64,000 nt of DNA from Owenia fusiformis (Eukaryota > Annelida > Polychaeta > Sabellida > Oweniidae), in NCBI GenBank assembly GCA_903813345.2, contig CAIIXF020000007.1, positions 29,916,698-29,980,697 of the forward strand, given 5' to 3'. Positions 9,001 through 52,990 of the stretch are shown here, in pieces. The notes beneath the pieces were generated by a model. That model was not told the origin of the DNA. It saw nothing but the letters and a program-made list of their open reading frames with translations, and did no database searches. Every line of letters begins with the position of its first letter. Position 1 is the first letter of the stretch. Made by a program: the position numbers and the translations under genes.

Positions 9001-12000
9001 TACTTTTCGAGTTATAGCAAAATAGGTTTAAATGGCGGCCATTTTTCAAAATGGCGGCCATTTTTCAAAATGGCGGCCATTTTTTAAAATGGTCGCCTTC
9101 TACCAAAAGTGTCTTTAGACAGTGTGCAATGTTTATAGTATTCACATACCAAATATGAACAAAATCGCTCCAGTACTTTTCAAGTTACAGCAAAAATCGT
9201 AAAATAACGAGTAAAGGCCGCCATTTTTCAAGATGGCTGCCATGTGCTTCTTTAATATCTACATTTCTAGCTTTATTAATGTCCTATATAATTTTTTTAC
9301 ATCTAAAACATATTGCTATTACAGTTTTACATATTGCACCTAAATGACTGTAAATTCGGCACTAAAATGGCTGCCATTTTGAAATGAGCAGCCATTTTGA
9401 AAATTGGCTTTCGAGCAGAACTTCTACCTCCATAGGGTATATGTGTACAAAATATGAACAAAATCGGGCCAACGGTATTTGAGTTATTGCCCGGACGGAC
9501 GGACAGACGTACGTACGGACGGACAGACGGACGGACGGACGGAGGCGTTCCCTATATCCCTCCGAACTTCGTTCGATGGGATAATAAAAAGTACTGAGGA
9601 AGATGCAGAGTCAAAACCAGAAAACAACTGAATTTTATCAATAACTCTCTACTCAAGATTATGGAAATCATTACATGTAATAATGTGTGGGTGATTTTAA
9701 TCAGGATTTAATATTGAAAGGTGAATCTAATTTACCTTCAGTTTCATTCTTGTTCTGCCCTCTTCATCTAGGACTTCATCCTCATCTATTTCATCTTCAT
9801 AGATGGCAGCATCGAATGGCCTAAGTAATATCAATCAATTTTAATCAAGCCTTTTTTGAATAATGTTGTACAGGTTCATAGTTTCTCAAAAATATCATGA
9901 ATGATAATTTATGTGAAAGCAATCCAGAAATGACTCAAATGATGTCTAAGACAAAATTCCACGTATTTTTGAACATTTTTTGAAAATTTCACTGAGAGCA
10001 AACCTGGACTGAAAATGTGATATCTCTAAATTTCAAAGTAGTTGATGCTACAGGAATAGAACAGTCTTTCTGCCATTGAACATCCTATCTACACACAAAT
10101 AAAAATCACAAAGATTCCTTAATTATTGAGAAAGATATTCCAAAATTAGCGGGTGGCTTTTTTGTGTCACCCAGTACTTTAGATTTGACGGAAATGTTGG
10201 TGACGCATAGAATGAAATCCACTAACCTTGTTTCAACACTGAGGAAGTTGGGAAGTTTCACAAAATGAATCTGCTTGCCAAGGTCTGTCTTAATCTTAGG
10301 TATGTCAACTGGAATCTTCACTTCTATTGGCTCTTCTGGTTGCTGTTCCCCCTCCCCATCTTCATCGTCTATCATAGGTGCCTGGTGGAAAAACAAATAA
10401 AAACAAAACATCAATAAAAAAAATCCAGCCATTTCTAAATCAAAATGTGGAAGTAATAACAGTAACAATTTTCAGACAAGGCATTAATATGCAAAATATC
10501 ACCACCTTCCATTTAACATTGTCTACAATTGATTGTCATAATGATATAATGCAAGTAACATGGGTTACCTGTTGATTGTCATAATCATGTAAAATGCAAG
10601 TAGCATGGCCTACCACTTGATTGTCATAATCATGTAAAATGCAAGTAACATGCCCTACCACTTGATTGTCATAATCATGTAAAATGCAAGTAACATGGCC
10701 TACCAGTTGATTGTCATCATATTGTTTGTCATAAAATGCAAGTAACATGGCCTACCAATTGATTGTCATAATGGTATAATGCAAGTAACATGGCCTACCA
10801 GTTGATTGTCCTTATATTGTTTGTCATAAAATGCAAGTAGCATGGTCTACCTGTTGATTGTCATAATGGTATAATGCAAGTAGCATGGCCTACCTGTTGA
10901 TTGTCATAATGGTATAATGCAAGTAACATGGCCTACCAGTTGATTTTCATCATATTGTTTGCCATAAATGCAAGTAACATGGCCTACCAATTGATTGTCA
11001 TAATGGTATAAAGCAAGTAACATGGCCTACCTGTTGATTGTCATCATCCTGTTTGTCAGACTCATGTTCTGATGCAGAGCTAATATCGTCCAAGTCATCT
11101 CCAAACAGGTCATCTGCTGTGGCTGTGATGTCTGCAACCATTCAAATACAGTATTGTATACAGTTTCTTATATGTTCTTGTTGGAAAATCTAAATTATTG
11201 TAAAATGCTACAGCAAGACTAGTACATGATAGAGATAAACTACAGATTAAATATATAGAGATTACACTTCAAAGATGTCACTAAGTCATATGTAAATGTT
11301 TTATATTTATTTATAATCAAAGTTATAATAAAGTTATAATGGAGGATAAAAACATTCACTTTTTCTCATAAGTATTAGTCTACATTATTTACCTGGTTGC
11401 TTTTCTGCATCTGATTCACTATCACTGACAAGTCTCTGTTTCTTTCTCTGTACCACACTTCCATCTGAGTCACTACCAGGTGACCTTTCTCGTCTGGGTG
11501 ATCCTGACCCACTTTTAGGTGAACCTGACCTACTTCTGGGAGATCCTGGCCCACTCCTAGGTGAACCTGACCTACTTCTGGGAGATCCTGGCCCACTCCT
11601 AGGTGAACCTGACCTACTTCTGGGAGATCCTGACCTGCTTCTAGGAGATCCTGACCTACTTCTAGGTGACCCTGACCTACTTCTAGGAGATCCTGACCTA
11701 CTTCTGGGTGAACCTGACCTACTTCTGGGTGATCCTGACCCACTTCTGGGTGACCCTGACCTACTTCTGGGTGATCCCGACCTACTTCTGGGTGTTCCTG
11801 ACCTACTTCTAGGTGACTCAGATCTACTCCTATGTAACGATCCACTCCTTGACCTTTCGCTTCTAGGGCTCCCTGAATGCTGACTTCTAGGGCTCCCTGA
11901 ATGTTGACTTCTAGGACTCCCTGAATGTTGACTTCTGGGACTTCCTGAATGTTGACTTCTGGGACTTCCTGAATGTTGACTTCTAGGGCTCCCTGACTGA

Positions 12001-14325
12001 TAGCTATGGGGACTTCCTGAACCTGAATGTGGGCTACCAGGTGGTGACCCAGAGTGGCCACTGTGTTGAGGTGACCCTGAATGGCCACTGTGTTGAGGTG
12101 ACCCTGAATGGCCACTGTGTTGAGGTGACCCAGAATGACCACTGTGTTGAGGTGACCCAGAATGGCCACTGTGTTGAGGTGACCCAGAATGGCCACTGTG
12201 CTGAGGTGACCCAGAATGGCCACTGTGTTGAGGTGACCCTGAATGGCCACTGTGTTGAGGTGACCCTGAATGGCCACTGTGTTGAGGTGACCCGGAATGG
12301 CCACTGTGTTGAGGTGACCCGGAATGGCCACTGTGTTGAGGTGACCCAGAATGGCCACTGTATTGAGGTGATCCAGAATGGCCACTAACAGGAGATCCAG
12401 ATCTTTCACTTCCCGGTGATCCAGGATCACTTTCTCCTCCACTATTCATCTCTGCATCTGTAATTATTAAAATACAGCATCAAAGAACACTATTATAGAC
12501 TACACTGTTATAGAACTGGAAGTGTGTTGACATCTGCACATAGCCGATTCACATTCCGCTTTCAATTCGATTGTACATACATGCTTCTTACTAATTAAAT
12601 GTACGTGTATCTCCAAATGATTACTTTGATTTATATTAGAAGATTTTAACTTCCCTGCTTCATAAAAAGAACATTACAGTATCACGGTTTTCTTGAATTC
12701 TAAAACTTACTTCAAGTGTTATATCTAAATAAAGATACATGTAGCTTATGCTGTGCCAGGACTATAGTCCTGAGTACATCTCAATCTTTTGCCTATATGA
12801 TTAGAACATGGGAGAATTTTCTACGCCTCTTGCACTACCTACTTCAATAGATTCCTGGGTAATTTAGCATTCTTTTCGTGTAGATGAATCCACAATCTGG
12901 GTTTATCGGCAGAATTGGAACATCTTTTTCATCGAGAGAGATTCCATCACTTTTCAAGATGGCAGTTGGATTTAAAAGGGAATTCCCCGTTTGACTGGCC
13001 CGACAGTGGCCCGGAAGTACCAATAAATGGAGGAATTTGACGGTTGAAATAAGTTAAGTATTACACGCAAACATTGTGATCAAAAACAAAAATTTCTTCG
13101 TTCTGCCAATTAATCCAGATAATTGTGGATTCAACCACATGAAAACAATGCTAAAATACCAAGGAATCTATTGAAGTAGGTATCTTAAGTGTAAGAGGCG
13201 TAGAAAATTCTCCCATGTTGTAATTGTACAGGCAAAAGATTGAGACATTCTCAGGACTATAGTCCTGGCACGGGATAACATAGCTAATCTACTTCAACCA
13301 TGGGGCTCTTTCAATCATGGCTGATATTTCTTTCCTTGTCCTTTCTTGGACTTAAATCTTGCCCATCGTAGATTTGATCTATTTGAAAAATTTGAAGTAG
13401 CTCCATGACAAAGTTACCCCATATGTCGAAGACTTGAAGGGTTTACTTCGGTCCAAAGCCTTCTCTATATTCCGGCTTTGAGGAGGAAGATTGAGCTGCT
13501 TTAGTATTATAAATATTGTAAATCATTGTGTCACACGCACAGTAAATATGGCATAATAATATGAAATATACCTTTATGTATAGATTTGAAGAACATCAGG
13601 AGCTCACATCCCCGTCTGAATCTATTGTTATATTTGATTTCTTTAAGCGAGAATAATTTCAAATGTTATTCACGTCCAGAACCGGAAGCCATTTTTAGCT
13701 ACAGCGAGAAGATTTTACCATGTGTCAAAACTCCGAAATGAAATTTTGAAATATCTAAATCCAGACAAGCAACGCTTCATCCTAAATATGATTAATATTC
13801 TTAAAAATATTTATAAAATTTATTAAAAATGAGTTCTAGGTGCGTGTAGGTGCGTGTAGCACAGTACATACGAAATCAATGAAGTTTCGTCTAGCTGTAA
13901 GCTAGAGACTCGAGTAATGAAGGGTGACCCAACAAGATGAGCTGAGTTTGAATACATGGGCTTTCTATTGAATGCCCATGGTTTTTAGGGTATTCTTGGC
14001 GATTTTTGTCGAAGAAGAAATTGTTTTAGATGGCTTTGCTGGTCCAGAAGTGAAATTCAAGTTCCCTTTTTAAGACTTCTAATATCATACAACAGTGTAA
14101 ATACTCTAGCTCTCTGTGGAAGTCAAATTCAAAAACATGAAAATAAAACAATTTTTCATTTTTGAAAAAAAAAAGGATATATTCATTCTAACTTCAATTT
14201 TCATATTCATAAACGTGAATGAAAGAGGCAAAGATTGAATTTTACGTTGTAAATATGAATCAACTGATTAAAAATACAAATACTTTACCATTTTCTTGTT
14301 GATCACCTTCGAAATGATCTGCCAT
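1..14325 (-). CDS. LEO1: RNA polymerase-associated protein LEO1 (gene span, 5' part; 3' end outside window)
   Basis: LEO1 is a nuclear subunit of the PAF1 complex, which travels with RNA polymerase II and promotes elongation and histone modification. Eight coding exons on the minus strand (14325-14289, 12457-11393, 11131-11031, 10381-10227, 9820-9736, 8247-8129, 7184-7050, 220-85) all have GT/AG borders and matching phases, and give 611 residues in one frame. The order is: short acidic start; very long Ser/Gly/Pro/Arg repeat region (about 20-345); acidic DLFGDDLDD segment; and the conserved LEO1 domain from about residue 425, with [11 protein letters not shown], the ENTIRWR segment, SDGSMSLHLG and the PHSTDS-THRKM block as in animal LEO1. 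The frame is still open at 85, so the C-terminal basic and acidic tail lies to the left. The gene is divergent from the CARD gene at 14608. The introns are full of mobile elements. Identification rests on recognising the conserved blocks, without a database search. Confidence 0.95.
85..220 (-). CDS. LEO1: LEO1 exon 8
   Basis: Encodes the block [20 protein letters not shown] followed by [20 protein letters not shown] and RNEMIK, collinear with animal LEO1. The acceptor is at 222-221 and the donor GTTAGT at 84. It is the leftmost exon in the window, and the frame continues beyond it. Confidence 0.93.
1145..2381. mobile_element. Non-autonomous DNA element with inverted ends and many subterminal motif copies
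   Basis: The left end TGCCCATGTCAAGC and the right end GCTTGACATGGGCA are inverted repeats, imperfect over about 40 bp. Between them the motif CAAACTGCGCGCCTA or its reverse complement recurs about eight times (near 1195, 1571, 1600, 1925, 1953, 2320, 2340). Repeated subterminal motifs in both orientations are typical of transposase-binding sites in some DNA transposons. There is no coding capacity and no clear target duplication. It lies in LEO1 intron 7. Confidence 0.6.
3000..3185 (+). repeat. Interspersed repeat with GTGGGTGCA motifs, copy 1
   Basis: A short repeat in which 'gtgggtgca' or 'tgggtgc' recurs four to five times. A second copy lies inverted at 44955-45145 with the same order of blocks, which shows that this is a dispersed element rather than local sequence. 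Class unknown. Confidence 0.55.
4464..5459 (+). mobile_element. Mariner-like (IS630/Tc1/mariner) transposon, decayed
   Basis: Flanked by TA (4462-4463 and 5460-5461), with inverted ends of about 130 bp that start CAGGGTGTC on the left and end GACACTCTG on the right. It is a full-length relic of 996 bp holding a broken transposase on the plus strand. Confidence 0.8.
4700..5180 (+). pseudogene. Mariner-like transposase pseudogene
   Basis: Fragments in several frames match mariner transposase blocks: a [10 protein letters not shown] segment (compare GIIGPYFFE), [10 protein letters not shown] (compare WFQQDNATCH), GQLIS, and [11 protein letters not shown] then a stop, then GFLKANVY (compare SPDLTPPDFFLWGYLK-VY). 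The second catalytic Asp is Ala and the third is Asn, and there are stops and frameshifts, so it is dead. Confidence 0.75.
6880..6980. repeat. G/C-run-rich repeat fragment beside LEO1 exon 7
   Basis: Holds a 10-base G run at about 6969 and 'ccccag'-type blocks. It looks like an end of a MITE but no partner end was found. Low confidence. Confidence 0.2.
7050..7184 (-). CDS. LEO1: LEO1 exon 7
   Basis: Encodes [20 protein letters not shown] and then [19 protein letters not shown] plus TKLTFR (last codon split). This is the core of the LEO1 domain. The donor GTAATT opens a 6.8-kb intron. Confidence 0.95.
7306..7850 (-). mobile_element. 5'-truncated non-LTR retrotransposon (LINE) 3' end
   Basis: The minus-strand frame at 7808-7461 encodes the C-terminal end of a LINE reverse transcriptase: a Cys/His cluster [17 protein letters not shown], the usual CxC-x8-H-x4-C zinc-knuckle-like tail, in a typical setting. 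It is followed by an AT-rich 3' end with an A tail at about 7316-7306 on the minus strand. It sits in LEO1 intron 6, upstream part missing, as is usual for LINE copies. Confidence 0.6.
8129..8247 (-). CDS. LEO1: LEO1 exon 6
   Basis: Begins [17 protein letters not shown] and ends [13 protein letters not shown], collinear with ENTIRWR and ESNARIVKWSDG in known LEO1. It carries a slightly longer loop (ILDEEGNPV) between the two conserved parts. Confidence 0.94.
8395..9590. repeat. Tandem block with GGCGGCCATTTT motifs, ending in ACGG repeats
   Basis: About five imperfect copies (125-170 bp) of a unit containing AAAGTGTCATTAGACAGTG and CCAAATATGAACAAAATCG, starting near 8523, 8648, 8794, 8928 and 9101, with inverted GGCGGCCATTTT / AAAATGGCCGCC segments. 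It ends in a (ACGG)n run at 9493-9543 followed by a terminal block. This layout, a unit with 'atgaacaaaatcg' ending in ACGG repeats, is a dispersed repeat of marine invertebrate genomes (family memory, unchecked). It lies in LEO1 intron 5. Confidence 0.65.
9736..9820 (-). CDS. LEO1: LEO1 exon 5
   Basis: Encodes [20 protein letters not shown] followed by GRTRMKLK, matching the PFDP-Y-EDE-DEEGRTRLKLK region of animal LEO1. The phase is 2 at entry and 0 at exit. Confidence 0.93.
10227..10381 (-). CDS. LEO1: LEO1 exon 4, start of the conserved domain
   Basis: Starts [20 protein letters not shown] and reaches [20 protein letters not shown], the most recognisable LEO1 block. Acceptor CCACCAG, donor GTTAGT. 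The phase is 0 at entry and 2 at exit. Confidence 0.95.
10529..11030 (-). repeat. Minisatellite made from the LEO1 exon 3/intron 3 junction
   Basis: Around eleven tandem units alternating between 43-45 bp and 51-52 bp. Each carries TTGATTGTCAT next to a CTACC, the plus-strand view of the exon end 'GACAATCAA' joined to a GGTAG donor. The longer units also carry the 'TTGTTTGTCA' part that encodes DKQ in exon 3. Several copies keep a full CAG|GTA donor (near 10572, 10854 and 10897). Confidence 0.85.
11031..11131 (-). CDS. LEO1: LEO1 exon 3, acidic segment
   Basis: Encodes [20 protein letters not shown] and then the end [13 protein letters not shown]. The DLFGD-type acidic motif is typical of LEO1. 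The donor is CAG|GTAGGC at 11030. This exon end has been copied repeatedly into the following intron. Confidence 0.9.
11393..12457 (-). CDS. LEO1: LEO1 exon 2, Ser/Pro/Arg repeat exon
   Basis: A 1065-nt exon encoding residues 13-367. After [13 protein letters not shown] it is built of tandem peptide repeats: about a dozen copies of a 9-residue unit HSGSPQHSG (27-bp DNA repeat, about 12036-12390), then about five copies of an 8-residue RSQHSGSP unit, then about 17 copies of a 7-residue RSRSGSP unit. It ends in [11 protein letters not shown]. The N-terminal half of LEO1 is low-complexity and Ser-rich in animals generally, but such a long perfect array is unusual. SP and RS dipeptides would be phosphorylation targets (inference). 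The repeats keep two other frames open, which should not be read as genes. Confidence 0.9.
12753..13271. mobile_element. Foldback/MITE-type element in LEO1 intron 1
   Basis: Ends are inverted repeats of about 150 bp: the left starts GTGCCAGGACTATAGTCC and the right ends with its complement. Both arms share blocks such as TTTTGCCTxTA, GAATTTTCTACGCCTCTTxCA and TACTTCAATAGATTCC. No coding content. Confidence 0.65.
14289..14325 (-). CDS. LEO1: LEO1 exon 1 (start codon)
   Basis: Encodes [12 protein letters not shown] plus one base of the next codon, ending at a GTAAAG donor. The acidic start fits LEO1, and the phase (1) matches the acceptor at 12457. Confidence 0.85.
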
Positions 14326-32800: not shown

Positions 32801-35800
32801 TCATTCTAGAAATTAAATAATTATAATACAAGATTGAAATGAATAAACAAAGTCAAAGATTACTTTTAATTTAATGTTATTCACACTAAGTTACATAACA
32901 TGATAAAAATGCTACAAAAAAATATTTGATTTTCTATCTAAGGGAACCTTTAAAGTGAAGTACTTGTTACTTGAAGAATTTGGCTGAGTGGAACATAGTG
33001 CTGATATATCTTATAGATAGGGTAGGGGTCCTCAGGGGTCACTCTAGTTGTAGCAGTAGTAAACATTACGATCAGCATAACCTCTGCTTACTTGTACACA
33101 ATAATATCAATTCTCCTTTCTTCTTGTTAGACTATAAACATAGACATTTATTTAACTTAGTGAAATCAATGCAGTGCAGTATCTTAACCATAGCTTCATG
33201 CGTTTCTGTACATCTTTGTGTTGATTTGCTATTTTATAGAGATTTTAGTAAATAGGCTTATTTGTACTTTTGTAGTACAAGCAAAAGCACTTATCTCGCA
33301 TCTGCTAATGTTATTAAACTATTGTTAAACATTTGTATCTCTTAACTGGATAGTAAGATATGAAAGCTGTTTCTTGTTATCTTCTGGTAATATCATTAAG
33401 GAAAGCAAATCATTGCTAAAATAATACAGATGCTGGATTGAATATTCTTGTAAATCACCAAGGCCAAGCTACCTTTTTCAATAGTTTCATATTAGTTGGA
33501 AGAGAGCTTTATCTAGTATATCTACATGTAGCTAAAGTTCTAAGCTCTGATCCTCGGCAGTGGGGTGGGTGGGGGAGGTTTAAGGGCAAGCAAAATGGAA
33601 TAAGTAATAATCCTATAATGTATATATAAATGTATATTAATCTATTTATCGTGGGGGGTTGAGAGGCCAAACAAATGCTTGGTGAAAGACTGAGTATCAT
33701 AGAATCCAGGGATGTGTAAAACAAACTTGAAATGAGAATTAAATCGCAAATGATATGCTGTGTATGTTTATGTTGTTTCCTGCACAATTTCTTAAATTAC
33801 CAGCAAAGCAAGATATAAAAACAAACTGCAATACTAGTAACCACATGGCTAAGCTTTATATTTCATATATATCTTAAAAAAGTACTTCTTGAACTCCAAG
33901 ATTTGTGATTTTTGAACAGTTCGTGTCAGGAGTTAGACAAACATTTCTCGTAAATATTGCTAATTATTCCAAGGACCAAGCTGATATATGACAAATGGTT
34001 AGTAATCTTTTATTTAATAAATAAATAATATTTATGTCTCGTTTTTAACTATTATTGACAACTGATAAAATCATAGAAAAATTAGCTTTTCTATTTTAAG
34101 TTTTCCTTTCAAGTATTTAGTCTATAGCTAAAAGGGTCAGGATACCCTATAAAAGGGAGAAAACAAATTGGAGAATTTAATACAGTATAAGAGTATCCAG
34201 GTCAATAGTGACCGCAAAAGTTACCCTATCAAGGAAAAAATGTCTATGTTATTACTACATAAAACATTCTATAAAAATAGAGAAAGAAGGTTATCTATTT
34301 TTTATAAATAATAAATTTATTTGATAATTTCAATTTGTTTTCTCTATCGTCACTGTGATATTCATAGGAAATCACGTCAAAATAAAATCTTTGTAACTTG
34401 TGGAAGAATATGATATTTTTGGGTTAATAATGTATATTTTATTTTTATGCATCATTCTTGAACATAAAATGACAATTTTCATTATTTTGGACAAGTTGTG
34501 TACATTCTGAATGAATTTGTTCTGTTGGAACAATATAACTTATCATAACAAACATGTCAAATGTGATTTTGCTGAAGCTTGAAATGTGGGCATGGCACTG
34601 CATACTGGAGACAAGCATGACTGTAGACTATACTTGTATATACAACAGAATAAATGGTAGCATTCCAGAGATCTGATGTACAGAAACAGATTTATAAGAA
34701 AGAAAATTCATTGAAATTGAAGTATTGTTGTGTTTGATTGCACATTGTAAACTTCACTTCAAATACAAAATATATTTGCCATACTTTTCATTTTAGGACT
34801 AAGAATAGGCCTATTTTGATGTTATGTTAGAAAAATAAGTTTCAGGCCTCCATTGGTCAATTTTCAGATTGGCCACTTTATAAGATACCATACCATTCCA
34901 TGATCAGGTTATATCATACCATGGCATACCTATTTTAATAGAATGACCATAACCAAACCATACCATACTATACCATGTAATGCCTTCCCAAATCATACCA
35001 TATTGAACCATACCTTTCTGTACCATACCATAACATTCGATGATCAAGCTGTGCCATACCATATCATACCATATCACACAGTGCCTTCCTATATCATACC
35101 ATACTGAGCTATACCAGACTAAATAAGCATGTTTTCTGGGCAAAGCTCTGCCTCAGTGAACACTGATATTCTGATAGCAGGTGATGTGGTTAGATCTAGA
35201 GAGAGCTAGAGAAGTGACATTGAACTTCAGGCTTGTGATTTAGGAGACGGTTTTAGAGAATTAAGGGTCCATTGTGCAGTAAAGCTTCACATTTCAACAC
35301 CTATGTGGTCATAGATTCAGGTAACACTGTGCAAGCCTACCAGACAGGAATGAGTCCTTGCAATCAATTTGACTACTATGGATCTAATGTTCTCTGTGTT
35401 TCATTGTTGTTTCTATATGTACATTAGATTCCTTTGTGTTAGGGGTAATTCTTCTCATGTTAGTTTTGAAACATTTTCCTCATCTATCCATCCCACCTCT
35501 CCCGCAAATAAATAATTGAATCTCGTGCAAGGGGGGGGGGGGACAACTGCTCAGTATTGTGGTTTACTTGGTATTGACTTCTCTAATAGGTAGTTCATAA
35601 GAAAACTGCTCAGTATTGTGGTTTACTTGGTATTGACTTCTCTAATAGGTAGTTCATAAGAAAACTGCTCAGTATTGTGGTTTACTTGGTATTGACTTCT
35701 CTAATAGGTAGTTCATAAGAAAACTGCTCAGTATTGTGGTTTACTTGGTATTGACTTCTCTAATAGGTAGTTCATAAGAAAAAGCCAGCTAGGGCTCAGT

Positions 35801-38225: not shown

Positions 38226-38689
38226 GTATGTTTTTGAATTTATTTTATGTATGAAAATGGTATTTTATTTAAATCCAAAATAGTTCATGTACTTTTAAAC
38301 TCATGTGTTGCATATATTTTACATTTTGGAGGGAATCTTGGATTACTAGGGACAGGGACATTGGTATTATTTATTTCAACATTACATAAATACTTGTTAA
38401 CATTTACTGAATAACTAAGCCTGGAGTAGGTCTCATTTCTGACAAAAAACAGTGGTGTTTCATCTGAAAAATTATGTTCAAATTCCTAAGAAGAGTTATT
38501 ATTGAGGCATTCTTCAAAGCAGGGGATATCTTATCTGATCTGGAACCCACTGAGAAAACTGATTCTTTTTGAGAATGGTGCAGGAATGGCTATATCGTTG
38601 TATAGCGATATATATCGCTATACTGCCTCTCATTGACTTACATGTGATATATTCGATATATATCGTCGATATATAAGGCTATATAAAAT

Positions 38690-40210
38690 CTGGCCAGATA
38701 TACTTGTCCCGATTTTATCATGTTCCTAGCATTTACCCATGACGATATACACGCTATATTCGATATATGTATCCTCTTGCCAAGATATAGAGCGATATAC
38801 ACACGATGTATACGCTATATTGGCTATATATATCCTGTCTTTAAGATATATCGGATATATATCCCCAATACAGGGGTTTGTTGAATCAGTTCTTACAATT
38901 ATCCATGATGATATAAACGATATACATGATATATTCGATATATATCCTCTTTCCAAGATTTAGAGCGATATACACACGATATATACGCTATATTCGATAT
39001 ATATATATCCTGTATTTAAGATATATATCGGATATATATCCCCAATACAGAGATTGTTGAGTCGGTTCTTACAATTGTCCATGACGATATACACGATATA
39101 CACGATATATTGGATATATATCCTCTTTTCAAGATATAGAGTGATACACACACGATATATACGCTATATTCGATATATATCATGTGCTCAAGATGTATAT
39201 CAGATATATATCCTCAATATAGAGTTTGTTGAATCAGTTCTTACAATTATCCATGTCGATATACACGATATACACGATATATTCGATATACATCCCCTTT
39301 CCAAGATAGAGAGCGATATACATACGATATGTTCGCTATATTCGATATATATATCCTGTCTTCAAGATATATCGGATATATATCCCCAATACAGGGTTTG
39401 TTGAATCAGTTCTTAAAATCATACACGACGATATACACGATATACACGATATATTCAATATATATCCTCCTTTCAAGATATAGAGCGATATACACAAGAT
39501 ATATACGCTATATTTGATATATATCCTGTCTTAAAGATGTATCGGATATATATCCCCATCCTCCGATCACAGGGCTTCAAAATCCAGAACATATTCTTTC
39601 TTTTTACCCCTGCGATAAGCATTTACCATTTCCCAGATTAGAAACTCGCAATCTGATTGGCTGTCGCAACACTGCGACAGAAATCATGTATAAGTCATTG
39701 CGCATAAGTAGATCACGTGATTCAGTTAAATCGGGCGCGTCCAAATTGGTTATAGCAGGGGGGAGAAGGAGGTACGGATTCTGGACACCTGCTTAGGAGG
39801 ATGATATATCCCCAATACAGGGTTTGTTGAATCAGTTCTTAAAATTATACACGACGATATACACGATATACACGATATATTCGATATATCCTCTTTTCAA
39901 GATATAGAGCGATATACACACGATATATACGCTATATTCGATATATATATCCTTTCTTCAAGATATATATCGGATATATATCCCCAATACAGGGTTTGTT
40001 GAATCAGTTCTTAAAATTATTCATGACGATATACACGATATATTCGATATATATCCCATTTTCAAGATATAGAACGATATACACACGATATATACGCTAT
40101 ATTCGATATATATATCCTGTATTTAAGATATATATCGGATATATATCCCCAATACAGGGTTTGTTTGTATACACGACGCTATACACGATATACACGATAT
40201 ATTCGATATA
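38690..40210 (+). repeat. 172-bp satellite array, left part
   Basis: The unit boundary CCCCAATACAG recurs near 38866, 39043, 39215, 39387, (insertion), 39813, 39985 and 40150, so the period is 165-177 bp. Each unit contains ACGATATACACGATATATTC, a TCCTCTTTCCAAGATATAGA block and TGTTGAATCAGTTCTTA. Many short frames are open here because of the repeat; none is a gene. Confidence 0.9.
39557..39803. mobile_element. 247-bp MITE of the CATCCTCC family, copy 3, inside the satellite
   Basis: Ends as in copies 1 and 2, direct repeat ATATATCCC at 39548-39556 and 39804-39812. The neighbouring satellite units show the uninterrupted site, so this insertion is certain and younger than the array. It contains GCTGTCGCAACACTGCGACAG, a perfect short hairpin also found in copy 2. 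Confidence 0.9.
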
Positions 40211-41287
40211 CAGGGTGTCCGGAAAGTAAAGATACAAATGCTCTTATTTTAAGAGATTTGGGTGTTTTGAAATGAAACTGCTACAGATTGTAGAGGAAGA
40301 TGATCACAATATATCTACCAACTTTCATCACATATAGTCTTAACGTGTTCAAGTTATGGCTGTTATGGTTACGGCTTTGAGAGGTATGCGGAGCAGTTCC
40401 AGAACATCGCTAAAATGTCAAAAATTGCTAAAATACAGCCATCTGAAACAGTGTTTATTGTCGTATTTTCTTTCAATGTTTTGCTAATTTTTGTTTGTTG
40501 TTTGTATTATTACTGCTGTGGTTTTTTCTTTTATATAATGATGTCATTGTTACATATCAGAACTATTTTATGTCACTAACCAGTATAATCAAAGAAATAT
40601 CATACAAGTGTTTAGAAAAAACAGCCTCTGGATTAGTTGGAAAGTCAATATTGCATCTCCATAATACACCCATTCTCAAAGCGAAGAAAACAATTCTTAC
40701 AATGGATTGTCTTGACATTAAACCTTTCTATACAATGCCCCATATTCACCTGATAGAGCCTTTTTTGACTTCTACCTAATGACCATCTGAAAGCAATATT
40801 TGTAAGAAGTTCAACATACAAAATGAGTCTCAGCTGAAAGTCAATGCTATACACAATTTGAGAGACGGACAGCAATGATTTTGTCAAGTCTTTGAATCAG
40901 CGGTCAAGATGCACCAAACATGTTTAGATAGGGGAAAATATTGAATATTCAATGATAGTAGTTATATGAAGAGATCAAATAATGTTACGGTACTAATCCT
41001 TATGCTGTTGTAGTACATAATTTGATGTAATATAGGAATAGATGGTAGAATGCCAAGATGCTATGAGCAGGAAAGAGATTTGTAAAACACATTTGTGACG
41101 TTGCTCCACATACCCTCGACTCCCGTTACCATAACGACCATAACTTTTTCATTTTAAAACTAAAATGAATGACCGTTGCAGGATATATTGCTATAATGTC
41201 ATTCTACATTCTGGAGCAGTCTCATCTCATAAGATGTAAATCTCTTAAAATGAGAGCATTTGTATCTTTACTTTCCGGACACCCTGG
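40211..41287. mobile_element. Mariner-type element inserted in the satellite, no transposase seen
   Basis: Inverted ends start CAGGGTGTCCGGAAAGTAAA; the first 48 bp are nearly identical at both ends, and the similarity goes on imperfectly for about 190 bp. TA flanks (40209-40210 and 41288-41289). The satellite resumes after it. The interior (about 700 bp) has only short frames, so it is probably non-autonomous. Confidence 0.8.
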
Positions 41288-41313
41288 TATATCCTCTTTC
41301 CAAGATATAAAGT

Positions 41314-41473
41314 AGTTATTTACCAGGAGGGATTTGATATGGGGAATATCACAAGGATGATATCAATTTCCCGAGGGAACATAGTGACCGAGGGAAATAT
41401 CGATATCATCCGAGGGAAATATCGATATCATCCAAGGGATATTACCCATATCATCCCGACAGGTGAATAACGA
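41314..41473. repeat. Palindrome with 'ccgaggga' hinge
   Basis: The left arm GATATGGGGAATATCACAAG and GGATGATATCAATTTCCC is mirrored on the right, where the block CGAGGGAAATATCGATATCA is present twice in tandem. Confidence 0.65.
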
Positions 41474-41570
41474 CCTTATACCATGGTCAAGAGCAACATC
41501 TACCCAATACAAAATCTTCTGTTGAATGAGAGATAAAAGAATTGAATCTTAGCAATATTTACGTTACATA

Positions 41571-42359
41571 CACTCCCCTCCATAAGTTTGGCAATCTTAG
41601 CTCCCTCATTGAATTACGTGTTAAAGCCTCTTTATGTTTGAATTTCTATTTCCATTACCTGCGAGGAAAATACTTATAATATTGATGGGAATGTAATTTA
41701 ATGCATTTCCAATGCCTCCAAATGTTCCCAATTCTTTTCCTCAATTACAATAGGTTGAAAATTGATGATAAATCTGATGAATTTTGGAAAATCGACATTT
41801 CCATGTAAACCAATGGGAAATGATAGGTTTGCCGCAAGTCATATGGTAGAATATTTATCCATCTTCTTGCAAAAAATAAAAGTTAGGTGGCCAAAATTGT
41901 ATTTGCTTACTTTGTTTAATAAAAATTTGATATGTTTCCTCAGTTTTAAAAAGTTATAGGTCTTCAAAGTCAAATTTATTTTTCTGTTACTAAAGTATTC
42001 ATAAAGTAAACTGAACACTTAGAGTACAAAGAGTAGACAATTCAATTTTCTATAATTATAAAAATATTTTAGGTGAGTCTTTTACTGGTTAGATACCCTG
42101 AAATCAGATTTGCCCCGAACCCACCATTTTCCATTGGTTTACATGGGAATGACAATTTTCACAAATTCATAAAGTTTATCATCAATTTTCGACCTATTGT
42201 GATTGAGGAAAAAACCTTGGAGGCATTGGAAATGAAGTCAAGTTACATTTCCATCAGTATTTTCCTCACAGGTCATGTTAATAAAAATTCAAACAAAAAG
42301 AGGCTTTAATATGTAGTTCAATGAGGGAGTTAGGGTTGCAAAACTTATGGAGGAGAGTG
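41571..42359. mobile_element. 789-bp foldback element with Tc1-like ends
   Basis: TA at 41569-41570 and 42360-42361. The ends CACTCCCCTCCATAAGTTT and AAACTTATGGAGGAGAGTG are inverted, and the mirrored arms run about 270 bp (for example TTTCCATGTAAACCAATGG in the left arm). The centre is near 41965. No transposase. Confidence 0.8.
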
Positions 42360-42584
42360 TATATCCTACTCCCAAGTTCATTGAGAAATTAAGTATAAGG
42401 GCAAGAAAAACATAATACTTAAAGAAATTCAAATGTGAAGATAATTTTAATCAAAAAATGAAACTTAAAAAAAAACTTATTTTTGGAAAAAAATAAATTT
42501 TTGGAAATAAATTTAATTTGTGAAAAAAGATACCTACTTGATATTTGTCTTGATATCAAGATACTTAACGAAGATATACACGAT

Positions 42585-42690
42585 TTTTTGGAAAAAAATG
42601 AAAAATTTGGAAAAAATGAAAAATTTGGAAAAAATGAAAATTTTGAAAATATGAAAATTTGTGAAAAACTGAAAAATTTTGAAAATGATT
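42585..42690 (+). repeat. GAAAAATTTGGAAAAAAT simple repeat
   Basis: A/T-rich 18-bp word in several imperfect copies. The frame here (42483-42698) is repeat-derived. Confidence 0.6.
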
Positions 42691-42774
42691 TTTTTTAGAA
42701 AACATGTAAATTTTTTTAATATACCCGAGATGATATCAATATCATCCCTGATATCATCCCTCTAATCCTGAATA

Positions 42775-43240
42775 TCTTGAAAAGAGGATATATATCGAAT
42801 ATATCGTATATATCGTGTGTATATCGCTCTTTATCTTGGAAAGAGGATATATATCGAATATATCATGTTTATCATGTTTGAAAAATATAAGAACTGATTT
42901 AACAAAATTGTCAACTGGGAATATATATCCGATATATATCTTGAAGACAGGATATATATCGAATACCCTATTTTTCAAGCACGATATACACGATATATTC
43001 GATATATATCCTCTTTCCTAGATATAGAGCGATACACACACGATATATACGCTATACCATCTATATATATCCTGTCTTCAAGATATATATCAGATATATA
43101 TCTTCAATACAGAGGTTTGTTAAAAAGGTTGTTATATTTATGGATGACGATATACACGATATATTCGATATATGTCCTCTTTCCAAAATATAGAGCGATA
43201 TACACATGATAACAATATACACGATATATATCCTCTTTCC
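42775..43240. repeat. Satellite array, middle part with switched orientation
   Basis: From 42775 to about 42970 the 172-bp unit is reversed (AGAGGATATATATCGAATAT). From 42980 it is forward again. Inversion within the array is therefore visible. Confidence 0.75.
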
Positions 43241-43253
43241 TAGATATATAGAG

Positions 43254-43394
43254 ATTATCCTATATGAGGTTCAGGATATTGGGATTATCCCGAGGCTAAT
43301 ATAATATATTTGCCCAAGGGCCGCAGGTCCCGAGGGAAAATATATTATATTGGCCAAGGGATAATCCCAATATCCTGAACCGACTATAGGATAA
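43254..43394. repeat. Palindrome with 'cccgaggg' hinge
   Basis: The arms contain TTCAGGATATTGGGATTATC on the left and GATAATCCCAATATCCTGAA on the right. The hinge at 43315-43336 is CCAAGGGCCGCAGGTCCCGA. Confidence 0.8.
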
Positions 43395-43678
43395 TATGTT
43401 TATCCCATACCAATCTTGGTCATCTGGTTCACATTGTTCAATCGTGGAAATATTCTAGAATATTCATGTCCAGTTTTGTTTTCTTGGCCGTGGGCGGATT
43501 TTTTTGTTCTCTCAAATATTCCCACATTTATTTTCTCGAATTTTTTAAGTGGATGCTCCTTCTATTTTTTAAACCATCAAACAGATCCCGATTGTCTGTG
43601 TTTTCTCCATTGTCGTTTACAGCCATTACGCGAACGTTACAAATTATGAACAAATATGCGAGCGGCGATTATGACATA

Positions 43679-43740
43679 GCGGGCAGATATACTATATCTG
43701 CCCGCTCGGAGCGGGACGTAAAGCTATATCTGCCCGCTGA
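43679..43740. repeat. Small nested palindrome, GCGGGCAGATATA
   Basis: AGCGGGCAGATATA is followed by TATATCTGCCCGCT twice, with a CTCGGAGCGGGAC hinge between the two. Confidence 0.65.
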
Positions 43741-43794
43741 TGAAAATATAAGTTTTTACAAACCGGCTTTATGTACCTGTAACACGTCCAAGTA

Positions 43795-44038
43795 TGGGAT
43801 AAAGAGCGATACACACACGATATATACGCTAAAATCTATATATATCCTGTCTTCAAGATATATATCAGATATATATCTTCAATACAGAAGTTTGTTAAAA
43901 AGTTCTTATATTTATGGATGACGATATACACGATATACACGATATATTCGATATATATCCTACCCCAGAGATATATATCGGATATATTTCGATTTGAGGA
44001 TGGGAAGAGATAGTTTCACGAATATATCGTCTGAGAGA
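43795..44038 (+). repeat. Satellite array, right end
   Basis: The last one to two 172-bp units (GATATATACGCTA, TATATCCTGTCTTCAAGATA) before the right TIR. Confidence 0.8.
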
Positions 44039-44954
44039 CGATATATATCGCTATACAACGATATAGCCATTCCTGCACCTTTATGTTCTTTTTGGCATGC
44101 AGAGCTTTCAGAATAACTTTATAAATGAGGGGAGAATGGCCACCAACTATCAAAACAATTTTGTGCAAGATTTGTCTCAATTGTTTCACAATAACCTGTC
44201 AGATACAAGGTTTAACAAGCCCTTTATATTACATGCACCAAAACCTGCCAATGTGAACACTGGCTAGACTGAATGATTTCATATTTCAAGGTTCCATTTT
44301 TGTATTTAGATGGTCAGTGGCAGGATAGTAAGAATGGGTAATACTCTTGGTCAAGACTACTTTGTAGAGGAACCATATCTTTATCACTGAGGTCTTGGAG
44401 AAATTTTCCAATATGACTCTTTCTTCACTGACAGATTTGGATAGGAATGTTTGGAGCCTATTTTAAATTTTGAAAAAATATTCCAAAATTATGCAATAGT
44501 ATCCTCCCCTCCTTATTCACACAGGTTCCCAGATCCACCCATGAGAAAATTTCGTTATACATCTTGATTCATGAGCTTTCAAACAGTAGTTTCAACTTTG
44601 ATGAAAACTTTTGAAGTCAGAGATGTTGGTGACGAGTGTGTGTCTCCATAAGATATTTTGTCTCCAATTTCTGCTAATCATTAGTTCTATTATGACTATT
44701 CTAAATCTGTTTGGACATCTGACCTCTTAGATGTAGGTGAGGAATTCCTATTGAGGAATGTATGTAAGTGATCTCTCCCTTGTCTTCCCATATCTTGCTG
44801 CTGCCAGATATATACTCCTATAGTGATCCCTACAATCATGCCAGTCACACAGTGCTCATGTGATCATCACTCATGGTAGAGTTCTAGCAAGGACACCACC
44901 AAAAGACAAAGGTGAATAGCTTATATATGAGTTGACAAGGTTGGATGAACAAGG

Positions 44955-47805: not shown

Positions 47806-50546
47806 CTAAATCAGTTTTAAAGAATGATTACATATTATGGGTATTGTCAAGTTAGGTTAGCTTATGCTATACCAGTGTCACCCAATTGCTAAAAGAAAAT
47901 GATTCAAATAATTTATGAGAGATATGTTTTATTCCTATTTGTGCCATCTTCTCCCATTTTGTGCTTTGTTGATGGAAAGATAATATGGTTTTACTGACTC
48001 TGCAATCTTTGTTACTGTTACAAAAGTGAGTTAGTCATATACTGGAACCATTCATAGTATCACTTGACATTAATAGATGAACGTTGGTCTTATATAATTT
48101 ATACGTGGAAAAAACATTGAAATGCATTACCTGCATTGTAATGGACCACCAGTGTCACCATAGCAAGAATCATGCCCTTCTGCATGTGCACAAAACATTT
48201 TGTCAGATACAGGTTCATCAGAAAGTCCTTCACATTGATCATGGTCATTTATCCATGTTCTTAATAGAACATCTGAATACAGGCGCTGGCTACAAGATTT
48301 AGAACCTGAGCCTTCTGTGTCTCCCCATCCTGTGATTACACATGCCAGTCTTTTTATTTCAAATGTATTATCTGGGGGTAGTAATGCTGGCTGTGTAACA
48401 TTATTCATTTGTATTGGTTCATTCAATACTATTATTGCGATATCATTGTTTAAAGTTATTCGATCAAAATTTGGGTGTATTTTAAATGATGAGCTACTGA
48501 CTAATCTTTCCTGTTCGAATGGTTCTTCGGCTGAGATTCTATGCTTGCCTGTTTTGATTCTAACAAACTTTTTATTACTGATGAGATGTGCGGATGTTAG
48601 AATATGTCTTGGGCTTATTAGAGTCCCACCTCCCCTGCAATCATCAAGGAGGTCTATGTAGACCATCCAACGGTAATTGTTCTTTGGGCTGACTTCTTTA
48701 CCTCCTATGATGATAGAGGTAGACTCAGTTAGTCTTACTCCTGGTGTTGTACATTGTACCTTGTTACAGGTGTTCCAATTAAGGCCATGCATGGAACACT
48801 CTGCTCCAGCCTCATTTAAGGCATTACATCGCTTAACTTGGGCCTGTTTTCCACATCCTTCTGGACATGGGGAGAATGGTGTATATTCAGTTTCTAGGAA
48901 TAAAAATGGAACAATAGAAATGTGATATCTTTGTATTTTATAGCACATGTAGCTAGAGGAAAAAACTAATATGTTGTAATTATATACGAGTAGGCCTTTG
49001 AGAACTTTTTGAAAATAAGAAATGTGTCCTTCTTTGAATGAACAAATAACATAATTTACCTTCAAGGCTACGTTCACAAACTCCCAAACAGTTCAGGCGT
49101 TTATTTTTGCATTCACATCTAATACAACCTGCTTTCCAAAACACACCATCTTCTTCATTGCATCTTAATGCACACTTAGCCTTGTTAGAACAAGATATTG
49201 TGCCAGAATTACTGCATAAACATTTGTTACAGCCATCTTCATGAAGCCTATAATAATGATAATGTTTGAACAGTTGAAATATACTATACTATGGTAATTT
49301 ATCTTAGGTGTACTGTCTGAAGTTTTTCAGGGATTGTAGAGAACAATTGTCTCTTTGTCCAGTCATTTATTTTTCTATTTCTGCCCAAGCCATTGAAGCC
49401 AGTCAGACATCCTTCGTCCCCCATCTCAATATGCTAAGATATATGAGATATAGAGGTTCTTATATGAGTGCAAGATCGTCCATTCTTGATGAGCTTTGAT
49501 AATTCTTCATTATCAAAGCGAGTCAAGAATGGACGATCTTGCACAGGTACGAGTACAAGAAAGTTTTTCTCATATGACTCTGTATTATGCCATATTTTCA
49601 CCATTTTATCATAAAACTTAGTGAAAAATAGCTTCAAATTAATTGAACTTCATCTTTCAATTGTTATGACGTCATAACAATATTGAAGAAAATACATAGA
49701 TACACGTGGCAACATAGCTCCATTGTTATGACGTCACAGCTTAGTTTTGTTGAATTAGCATGGATACTCATAGAAACGGTGTGTCCGTTGCCATGTTGAT
49801 GATGTTTATAGACCAGTGATGTCACAAGTAAATCTCATCTTGCACGTGTGACTTTTTAGGATGAAAGATGGCAATATCTTGCATGGGGTAAAGATGGCTG
49901 TATCTTTGTTAGTCATATGAGAAAAAACTATTACACGAGATGTAGTCTAATGCATAATATAAGCATGTAACTCATGACTCGTGTAACTCATAGCTATTGT
50001 AAAATGTAACTTATGTAACTCATAGCTATTATAAAATAGATATTAATTTTGAAATTCGACATCTCTAATTCTTTCTCTTGACTATGTGAAAGTAAATGTA
50101 CAGGGTGGGCCAAAAGAACCTTCACATGTTTTACTTAAATACAATTTTCTACAAGTGGTAACTTACCATTTGCCATCAGCTGGTTTGTGCATGTTTCCAT
50201 TATTATCAATACATGTTACATCCAAACAACACATGTTGTATCGTAGTCCTTTCGGGTCAGTATAGCAGTAGTAGCCTTGGGGGCAGGTGATACTTCCTCC
50301 TCCACGACATTTATAAGGAGCTTGAGTTGAATTATCTATTAACGGGTTGCACTGTGGTACTTTCCTATACTGACAACAATTATTCTGGGCCACCTTGCAT
50401 CTGTATGTGTTAGGACAGTCTCGGTGAAATTTATCACAAGAAACAGTATGGTGCACAAGTTCTCCTCTCCTGCAAACGTGGCTCCCTCTTATCATTGTTA
50501 CACATATTATCACTGTCAAAAAATACACATTGACTCCAAGATTCAT
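47487..50546 (-). CDS. Secreted multidomain trypsin-like serine protease homologue, catalytic Ser replaced by Thr (complete, 4 exons)
   Basis: Exons 50546-50167, 49247-49060, 48893-48131 and 47805-47487 join in phase to 1650 nt (549 residues and TAG). Order: signal peptide (1-21); Cys-rich lustrin/WAP-like region (25-112, with CC pairs at 57-58 and 106-107, CPQGYYC at 88-94); VWC/antistasin-like Cys repeats (112-187); TSP1-like module (193-237); trypsin domain (about 251-470); TSP1 module (EWSPFTACSATCDIGKKSRV) to the end. Of the triad, His292 (TSAHL) and Asp340 (NNDIAI) are kept but Ser is Thr437 in GDTGGP. Asp431 (trypsin Asp189) is kept. The activation site is lost: IIGG follows Ile, not Arg/Lys. 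The His-loop Cys is Leu293. It is therefore most likely a non-catalytic serine protease homologue, extracellular, with a role in immunity, shell or matrix, or binding (inference). It might be nested in an intron of the CARD gene. Confidence 0.85.
48131..48893 (-). CDS. Protease homologue exon 3 (TSP1-like module and most of the trypsin domain)
   Basis: 763 nt, residues 190-443. It starts with a TSP1-like piece (YTPFSPCPEGCGKQAQVKRC), then the trypsin domain to GDTGGPLQC. The substituted codon, ACT for Ser195, is at 48153-48151 on the minus strand. Donor AG|GTAATG. Confidence 0.88.
49060..49247 (-). CDS. Protease homologue exon 2 (VWC-like Cys repeats)
   Basis: Encodes LHEDGCNKCLCSNSGTISCS, NKAKCALRCNEEDGVFWKAG and CIRCECKNKRLNCLGVCERS. 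The spacing CxxCxC with later C..C recurs twice, as in VWC, pacifastin or antistasin-like modules. The exact type is uncertain. Confidence 0.8.
49468..49544. repeat. 77-bp hairpin with near-perfect arms
   Basis: GTGCAAGATCGTCCATTCTT on the left is mirrored exactly on the right. The inner arms TTTGATAATtC/ATTATCAAA also pair. The loop is about 8 bases. Lies in intron 1 of the protease homologue. Confidence 0.75.
49655..49940. repeat. Repeat remnant with GTTATGACGTCATAAC palindrome
   Basis: Contains GTTATGACGTCATAACAAT and a second ATTGTTATGACGTCAC. Probably a decayed element; not identified. Confidence 0.35.
50167..50546 (-). CDS. Protease homologue exon 1 (signal peptide and lustrin-like region)
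   Basis: MNLGVNVYFLTVIICVTMIR is a clear signal peptide. Then follows a run of 14 Cys in about 90 residues. Donor TG|GTAAGT. The next codon is completed to Trp127 in exon 2. Confidence 0.85.
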
Positions 50547-51534: not shown

Positions 51535-52990
51535 TGTCACCACCAAAAGTGGTGACATATTGTTATGGTCTCCGTTTTTTTGCGACGGCGGTTGGTGGTT
51601 GGCGGTTGGTGGTTGGTGGTTGGCGGTTGGTGGTTGGAGGTTGGCGTCCGGCGTCCGGCGTCTGTAACAATTTCTTACAACTTCCTATAACTTAACAAAT
51701 ACTGTTTAGACTGACTTCAATTCTTTTCTAAATCATCTACATGTTCTCAGAAATTCAAATCTGACTTTAGATTTGACATTCAATGACCTTCTCAAGGTCA
51801 AAAAGGTCTTTTTTCAACTTGCTTCACATTGACTAAATTTTTTTTCAAAATCATCTACATGTTCTCAGAAATTCAAATCTGACTTTAGATTTGACTTTAG
51901 ATTTGACATTTGACCTTCAAATCTGACTTTAGATTTGACATTTGACCTTCAATGACTTTCTCAAGGTCAAAAAAGGTCAAAAAGGTCTGTTTTCAACTTG
52001 CTTCAAATTGACTAAATTTTTTTTTCAAAATCATCTACGTGTTCTCAGAAATTCAATTCTGACTTAAGATTTGACATTTGACCTTCTCAAGGTCAAAAAA
52101 GGTCAAAAAGGTCTGTTTTCAACTTGCTTCAAATTGACTAAAAAAAAATTTCAAAATCATCTACGTGTTCTCAGAAATTCAAATCTGACTTAAGATTTGA
52201 CATTTGACCTTCTCAAGGTCAAAAAAGGTCAAAAAGGTCTGTTTTCAACTTGCTTCAAATTGACTAAAAAATTTTTTCAAAATCATCTACGTGTTCTCAG
52301 AAATTCAAATCTGACTTTAGATTTGACTTAAGATTTGACATTTGACCTTCAATGACCTTCTCAAAGTCAAAAAGGTCAAAAAGGTCTTTTTTCAACTTGC
52401 TTCAAATTGACTAAATTTTTTTTTCAAAATCATCTACATGTTCTCAGAAATTCAAATCTGACTTTAGATTTGACATTTGACCTTCAATGACCTTCTCAAA
52501 GTCAAAAAGGTCTTTTTTCAACTTGCTTCAAATTGACTAAATTTTTTTTTCAAAATCATCTATATGTTCTCAGAAATTCAAATCTGACTTTAGATTTGAC
52601 ATTTGACCTTCAATGACCTTCTCAATGTCAAAAAGGGTCAAAAAGGTATTTTTCATCTTGCTTCAAATTGACTAATTTTTTTTTTCAAAATCATCTACAT
52701 GTTCTCAGAAATTCAAATATGACTTTAGATTTGACATTTGACCTTTAATGACCTTCTCAAGGTCAAAAAAGGTCAAAAAGGTCTGTTTTCAACTTGCTTC
52801 AAATTGCCCAAATTTTTTTTTCAAAATCATCTACATCTTTTCAAAAGTTCAAATTTGACTTTACAAGTTCTCAGAAGTTCAAATCTGACTTTAGATTTGA
52901 CCTTTGACCTTCAATGACCTTCTCAAGGTCAAAAGGTATTTTCCAACTTGCTTTAAATTGACCAAATTGTTTTAGGTGGTGACATTTTGT
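51535..52990. mobile_element. Tandem-repeat element bounded by GTGGTGACAT
   Basis: Begins GTCACCACCAAAAGTGGTGACATATTG and runs through a GGTTGGTGGTTGGCGG purine-pyrimidine block (51590-51660). About ten copies follow of a 110-150-bp unit with ATCATCTACATGTTCTCAGA, CAAATCTGACTTTAGATTTG and ACCTTCTCAAGGTCAAAAAG. It ends GGTGGTGACATTTTGTCATG. Begins and ends with the same word, so it looks like one dispersed unit. Confidence 0.7.

Follow-up and report, generated by a model that had tools for sequence, protein, structure and literature searches.

Tetris of Drosophila virilis is a foldback transposon with the TIR-220 satellite, and for Galileo the tandem arrays have been proposed to be a store of binding sites (both PMC4079207; published accounts are cited throughout for the sections we drew on). 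Arguments that connect satellites with transposons often rest on partial similarity. We describe here an element with satellite arrays in a 64,000-nucleotide stretch of the genome of the annelid Owenia fusiformis (assembly GCA_903813345.2, contig CAIIXF020000007.1; C7:29916698-29980697), hereafter the window. A first-pass annotation had noticed a satellite array between perfect 41-bp terminal inverted repeats and had proposed either a non-autonomous mobile element transporting satellite arrays or a hairpin-ended structure with a chromosomal function. Our results indicate, with a probability of about 0.93, that the window element belongs to a recently active family of non-autonomous terminal inverted repeat (TIR) DNA transposons carrying satellite. 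The family apparently lacks genes of its own and has brought its tandem repeats to at least 23 sites of the genome. No report of it was found in the full-text literature on Owenia fusiformis satellite DNA or on TIR-flanked satellite arrays, with supplements and subscription papers outside that scope.

A dispersed family with target-site duplications

The genome searched was the window's own (498,259,871 bases). The 41-mer occurs there 49 times when up to 3 mismatches are allowed (25 forward, 24 reverse); the reversed pattern, used as a control, has no match. Inverted pairs 2.4-6.2 kb apart account for 46 of the 49, giving 23 pairs; the three unpaired matches lie at C5:22270344, C12:26731058 and C12:27006276. 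Thus the end is neither restricted to this locus nor an internal part of ordinary satellite. Sequences of the other 22 pairs were retrieved, and all 23 copies, that of the window included, were aligned at their ends. Each carries fixed hexamers outside the 41-bp repeat, different on the two sides (GAGAAT on the left and CATAAA on the right, read inward), and separate searches with 20-mers recovered 23 exact ends of the GAGAAT type and 24 of the CATAAA type. The 41-bp repeats of the window copy are exact, as annotated, but each end is 6 bp longer, so that the element previously placed at 38577-44079 extends over 38571-44085 (5515 bp); its 47-bp ends agree with each other at 44/47 positions. Just outside the hexamers a perfect 8-bp target-site duplication is present in 23/23 pairs, TTCTTTTT in the window copy, and the 8-mer differs from site to site. 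These duplications have no clear consensus except an AT-rich middle. The first-pass annotation had asked whether inverted pairs bound arrays of different lengths, and the 23 elements do vary, from 2421 to 6221 bp.

Mean pairwise identity over 253 pairs is 98.6% (minimum 96.5%) in the left 170 bp and 98.1% (minimum 96.0%) in the right 126 bp, whereas interior segments, when compared with copy L020, are between 76.6% and 98.8% identical. Better preservation of the ends than of the interior fits a need for intact ends, although rearrangement of the arrays also depresses interior scores. Among 12 copy pairs compared, the lowest identity is 84.4%, between the window copy and L007. At the other extreme, L002 and L014, which lie on different chromosomes, share 99.7% identity over 3388 aligned bp; their alignment has 10 gap positions and no indel of at least 8 bp. 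L012 and L016 are 99.8% identical over 3764 aligned bp. The 114-bp flanks of the 23 copies have no BLAST match among themselves; repeats elsewhere in the genome match the flanks of L005, L007 and L015. Near-identity of L002 and L014 between unmatched flanks therefore indicates that array and ends moved together, and the near-identical copies and the high identity of the ends point to recent activity of the family.

Copy L015 is inserted in a dispersed repeat to which its flanks belong. Joined across a single target copy, these flanks form an 84-bp query that is found over 84/84 bases at 99% in 40/40 scored places. The host repeat runs uninterrupted through the insertion point in these places, the best 40 of 1386 first-look candidates (a sample from which the share of interrupted repeat copies is not derivable), and they represent paralogous empty sites. 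An element-free version of the same flank repeat, with 14 extra bases of short repeat, is present in L029. Of the two marks of insertion suggested for checking in the first-pass annotation, target duplications are present in every intact copy, and empty sites were found as paralogous copies of the host repeat of L015.

Satellite content and its variation

The array of roughly 172 bp noted in the window is real (38742-39558, 4.7 copies, 86% matches by Tandem Repeats Finder). It does not stop sharply at the terminal repeats as had been described, since satellite starts 113 bp inside the left repeat and ends 48 bp before the right one. Nor is almost the whole cargo satellite: it makes up 1917 of 5515 bp (35%), with 1723 bp in + and 194 bp in - orientation, and the rest consists of a shared core and of private or rare insertions. 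Across the family the satellite share is 35-61% (median 51%), mostly in a single orientation. Satellite in inverted orientation amounts to 176-222 bp in 21/23 copies, 135 bp in L010 and 410 bp in L019.

Indels of at least 8 bp were examined in seven close pairs. A 177-bp block at the first monomer separates L012 from L016, which also show indels of 11, 37 and 9 bp. Between L009 and L022 there is a block of 174 bp, another of 576 bp and three indels of 8-9 bp. Monomer-sized blocks of 173 and 180 bp also distinguish L013 from L012, beside larger ones of 490 and 1095 bp; between L001 and L020 there are blocks of 163 bp and, in the right array, 219 bp, together with larger ones of 562 and 436 bp. 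Blocks in L007/L021 are of 583, 674 and 1148 bp, and in L015/L006 of 544 and 584 bp. The monomer-sized blocks between close copies therefore indicate that array units were gained or lost, beside indels of other material.

Searched against the genome, the monomer has 315 matches. Among the 150 listed, 149 fall inside the 23 elements, touching all 23, and the remaining one (C12:27012195) lies in the decayed copy L025/L031. Scoring covered 40 of the 64 candidate places, so that standalone arrays may exist elsewhere. The monomer agrees with the left subterminal region at 21/22 bp, a resemblance that is short and AT-rich; on the right, the stretch resembling the monomer is the edge of the array itself. 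The palindrome GATATATATC, an AT-rich motif low in complexity, occurs 30 times in the window and 30/30 of these occurrences are within the element. Four copies of it are in the monomer consensus, and it is also present in both inverted ends and in the left subterminal region.

The window copy, its relatives and the search for a transposase

The layout of the window copy is given in Table 1. The nested element of about 1.08 kb has 185-bp inverted arms (40211-40395 and 41102-41286) that are 76% complementary. Sequence from 41381 to 43257 is present in six or more other copies. The palindrome of the core, with 110-nt arms at 41568-41677 and 42253-42362 that are 86% complementary, is probably an old nested palindromic element.

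Table 1. Features of the window copy, with positions counted from the first letter of the window
Feature	Positions	Strand	Remarks
Left target-site duplication TTCTTTTT	38563-38570	.	Same 8 bp on both sides; 8/8 in 23/23 intact copies
Left terminal inverted repeat, 47 bp	38571-38617	+	GAGAAT, then 41-bp perfect part 38577-38617; 44/47 agree with right end
Left subterminal non-array stretch	38618-38730	+	In 23/23 intact copies; end identity 98.6% (first 170 bp)
172-bp satellite array, part one	38731-39558	+	
Insertion	39559-39798	.	In 0/22 other intact copies
172-bp satellite array, part two	39799-40210	+	
Nested element of about 1.08 kb, CAGGGTGTCC ends	40211-41288	.	40213-41288 in 0/22 other intact copies
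Non-satellite core	41289-42771	.	41289-41380 in 1-5 other copies; holds long palindrome
Short inverted satellite piece	42772-42965	-	
Right satellite array, part one	42966-43255	+	In many other copies the period is about 220 bp
Segment in 1-5 other copies	43258-43797	.	
Right satellite array, part two	43798-43990	+	
Right subterminal stretch	43991-44038	+	
Right terminal inverted repeat, 47 bp	44039-44085	-	41-bp perfect part 44039-44079, then TTTATG
Right target-site duplication TTCTTTTT	44086-44093	.	Same 8 bp as left

Elsewhere in the window, a 59-bp unit is repeated four times with 100% matches at 35545-35782, and a tandem array with periods of 126, 273 and 399 bp occupies 51916-52863. On the - strand, 11375-12449 holds frames of short tandem repeats of 21, 24 and 27 bp, one of them serine-rich (SGSPQHSGH / SPRSRSG), and the frame at 48127-49077 resembles by eye a trypsin-type serine protease.

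Several further copies and relatives depart from the intact form. L025/L031 has a good right end and a decayed left end, GAGAATGGTGCAG, with satellite directly after it, and its target copies agree at 5/8 by eye. Only the right end is present in L024/L030, and L028 shows just a left end, which is diverged; L026 has a diverged left end followed by sequence that is satellite-like by eye, and L029 a diverged subterminal region. In L027 both ends are recognisable, with target copies agreeing at 5/8 by eye. The ends of this element (L027:191-2016; C9:17255990 being the coordinates of the element) are similar to those of the family, but near both of them is a GC-rich CAGCGCTGTGA-like tandem repeat and not the AT-rich satellite, indicating that the content of the element can change. 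As a separate observation, L031:2-499 contains a frame that matches Pfam DDE_3 and is mariner-like by eye; it lies inside the decayed element copy at about C12:27006270-27012462.

The first-pass annotation saw no coding part in the window element, and none was recognised here (frames by eye; 4 frames against Pfam). Read by eye, most frames of at least 110 aa in the 23 copies run through satellite. The four non-satellite element frames run against Pfam matched no family, the other non-satellite frames not being scanned. Among frames of at least 100 aa in relatives L026-L029, which were read by eye and not run against Pfam, no transposase was recognised.

A wider search used an 18-mer of the end, which at up to 3 mismatches has 237 matches against 89 for the reversed pattern. 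From this search and the two with 20-mers, 19 near-matches were fetched and read, and for 18/19 no continuation into the family was seen by eye, most of the listed 3-mismatch places being unread. Near-match L046 (C8:19999391) has GAGAAT plus 30/36 end bases by eye. The 9.8 kb downstream of it contain no second target copy, even with 1 mismatch allowed, and reading by eye revealed no transposase; one loose match resembling the right end is present, without TTTATG or a target copy after it. At L051, which matches the right subterminal region over 79 bp, no end was seen within 501 bp. One recurring end-like sequence, CAATAAAGTGCAGGAATGGATCT, was set aside: in the four copies fetched, the alignment extends beyond it to left and right, and it is therefore part of an unrelated dispersed repeat.

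Domain searches gave 4 partial genome matches for the Merlin DDE domain, whose surroundings are unread, 10 for KDZ and 13 for P/THAP9. The two KDZ loci fetched have no match to the 14-base end even when 3 mismatches are allowed, and the five P-like loci fetched had end matches at 3-4 mismatches of 14 only. A scan for inverted ends flanked by an 8-bp duplication recovered none in these seven loci; it is weak, its positive controls having given internal satellite first instead of the true ends. No transposase partner was found with Merlin, KDZ and P/THAP9 as the families searched; hAT, Mutator, Sola1 and Novosib were not searched. In their own right, L052 (C2) and L053 (C7) are two copies of a KDZ-domain element, 99.2% identical over 4.4 kb, and L054 (C10) and L055 (C4) carry P/THAP9-type domains and long open frames in copies 99.5% identical over 5.1 kb, representing a recently duplicated P-like gene or element.

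Mechanism, alternatives and known transposon classes

Three features of the TIR order were observed here, namely inverted ends (23 pairs), an 8-bp duplication (23/23) and empty sites (L015). Taken together with confinement of the satellite among the listed matches and with monomer-sized blocks between close copies, they lead us to a non-autonomous cut-and-paste transposon that carries satellite, the mobile element of the first-pass annotation. A putative transposase supplied in trans would recognise the 47-bp ends, excise the whole unit and join it to a staggered 8-bp target, with the 172-bp and ~220-bp satellite arrays carried along. Unequal exchange or slippage, whether during a move or between moves, may add monomers to the arrays or remove them. 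Several observations weigh against this interpretation. There are further copies without a perfect end pair (L025/L031, L024/L030 and L028). In some close pairs the differing blocks do not have the size of one monomer, for example those of 562, 436, 576, 674 and 1148 bp. The empty-site test concerns L015 alone, on best-scoring paralogous repeats and not on other individuals, and the confinement of the satellite is drawn from 150 of 315 matches and 40 of 64 scored places. Finally, a copy with a transposase, which the first-pass annotation had suggested looking for, was not found in the copies, relatives or near-matches read, and mobilisation in trans is for this reason inferred.

A foldback transposon like Tetris or Galileo, with the arrays as part of long inverted repeats, would account for tandem repeats toward both ends, for duplications within the 8-10 bp given for Tetris and for a transposase not found, as in the Tetris account (PMC4079207). 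It is nevertheless quite improbable, as the inverted ends are 47 bp long and not hundreds of bp, and left and right arrays mostly share one orientation (in the window copy, 1723 bp are + and 194 bp are -). AT-rich palindromes, frequent in array and ends (GATATATATC, 30/30 in the element), would suit a hairpin-ended chromosomal structure, or the dispersal of a satellite locus through segmental duplication or gene conversion. Such an origin would not lead one to expect 23 dispersed sites with exact 8-bp duplications and mutually unmatched 114-bp flanks, nor the empty sites of L015; we regard it as extremely unlikely, and the hairpin-ended structure gained no support from any of the results. Helitrons are not known to make a fixed-length target duplication. 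With 8-bp duplications in 23/23 copies, a Helitron- or Helentron-type element with central tandem repeats, as in oysters, has next to no chance of being the explanation, even though short satellite arrays in dispersed elements look alike at first sight (PMC8268682).

A further question, compatible with a TIR transposon, is whether the element took up a pre-existing genomic satellite or whether the satellite was born inside it. Uptake would agree with L027, in which similar ends accompany a different GC-rich tandem repeat, and with the short, AT-rich nature of the resemblance between monomer and left end. However, none of the 150 listed matches is outside element copies, the monomer fits the left subterminal region at 21/22 bp, and the diverged L026 has satellite-like sequence past its left end by eye, so that uptake is a minority possibility. 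Somewhat more doubtful still is the idea that the satellite is functional cargo, the array being a bank of transposase-binding sites, and that selection for mobility creates and keeps it; this idea builds on the four GATATATATC copies of the monomer consensus and on the presence of that palindrome in both ends and in the left subterminal region. If that were true, the different, palindrome-rich repeat of L027 would suggest that the transposase lineage repeatedly builds arrays; L027, its repeat being unrelated, neither proves nor excludes binding sites as the function.

The satellite-carrying TIR transposon proposed here matters in two respects. One young family shows ends, target duplications, an empty site and monomer-sized change together, which makes the birth and spread of a satellite testable copy by copy, and the 47-bp ends with the 8-bp duplication are a clear signature for finding the mobilising transposase.

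As to superfamily, the 8-bp duplication is compatible with several, and we assign the family to none. hAT duplications are 8 bp, of the kind nTnnnnAn. The length fits, with position 2 being A in 9/23 and T in 6/23 of the present duplications. KDZ/Zisupton elements have 8-bp duplications (PMC12730594), which the present length also fits. Merlin elements have duplications of 8 or 9 bp and internal tandem repeats whose copy number varies between copies, but their termini are 5'-GG (PMC8101967) and those of the present family GA and CA; the duplication length agrees with Merlin, the termini do not, and we do not place the family in Merlin. The target duplications in 23/23 copies speak against membership of Helitrons. 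The Helitron satellites of Crassostrea gigas (PMC8268682) are similar in that a mobile element spreads satellite over chromosomes, and differ in belonging to another transposition class.

Tandem repeats on a small non-autonomous class II element are shared with Xmix MITEs (miniature inverted-repeat transposable elements) and Xstir of Xenopus and with the tandem-repeat MITEs and pearl elements of bivalves (PMC9659126). MITEs in that account are about 400 bp, and the present elements, apparently non-autonomous, are at 2421-6221 bp too long for the class. Tetris, in the sections drawn on (PMC4079207), is likewise non-autonomous with no transposase found, and has AT-rich internal tandem repeats of about 220 bp, target duplications of 8-10 bp, near-identical alleles one repeat apart and a short similarity of the monomer to an end domain. 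It differs in having its repeats within long inverted repeats and in forming large standalone arrays as well (PMC4079207), whereas the present family has 47-bp ends, mostly one-way arrays and no standalone array among the listed matches. The long inverted repeats that hold the arrays in foldback elements such as Tetris and Galileo were not seen in it, and we do not place it among them. Satellite-carrying transposons are already known in Tetris, Xmix and the tandem-repeat MITEs, and the family described here is an unusually clean example.

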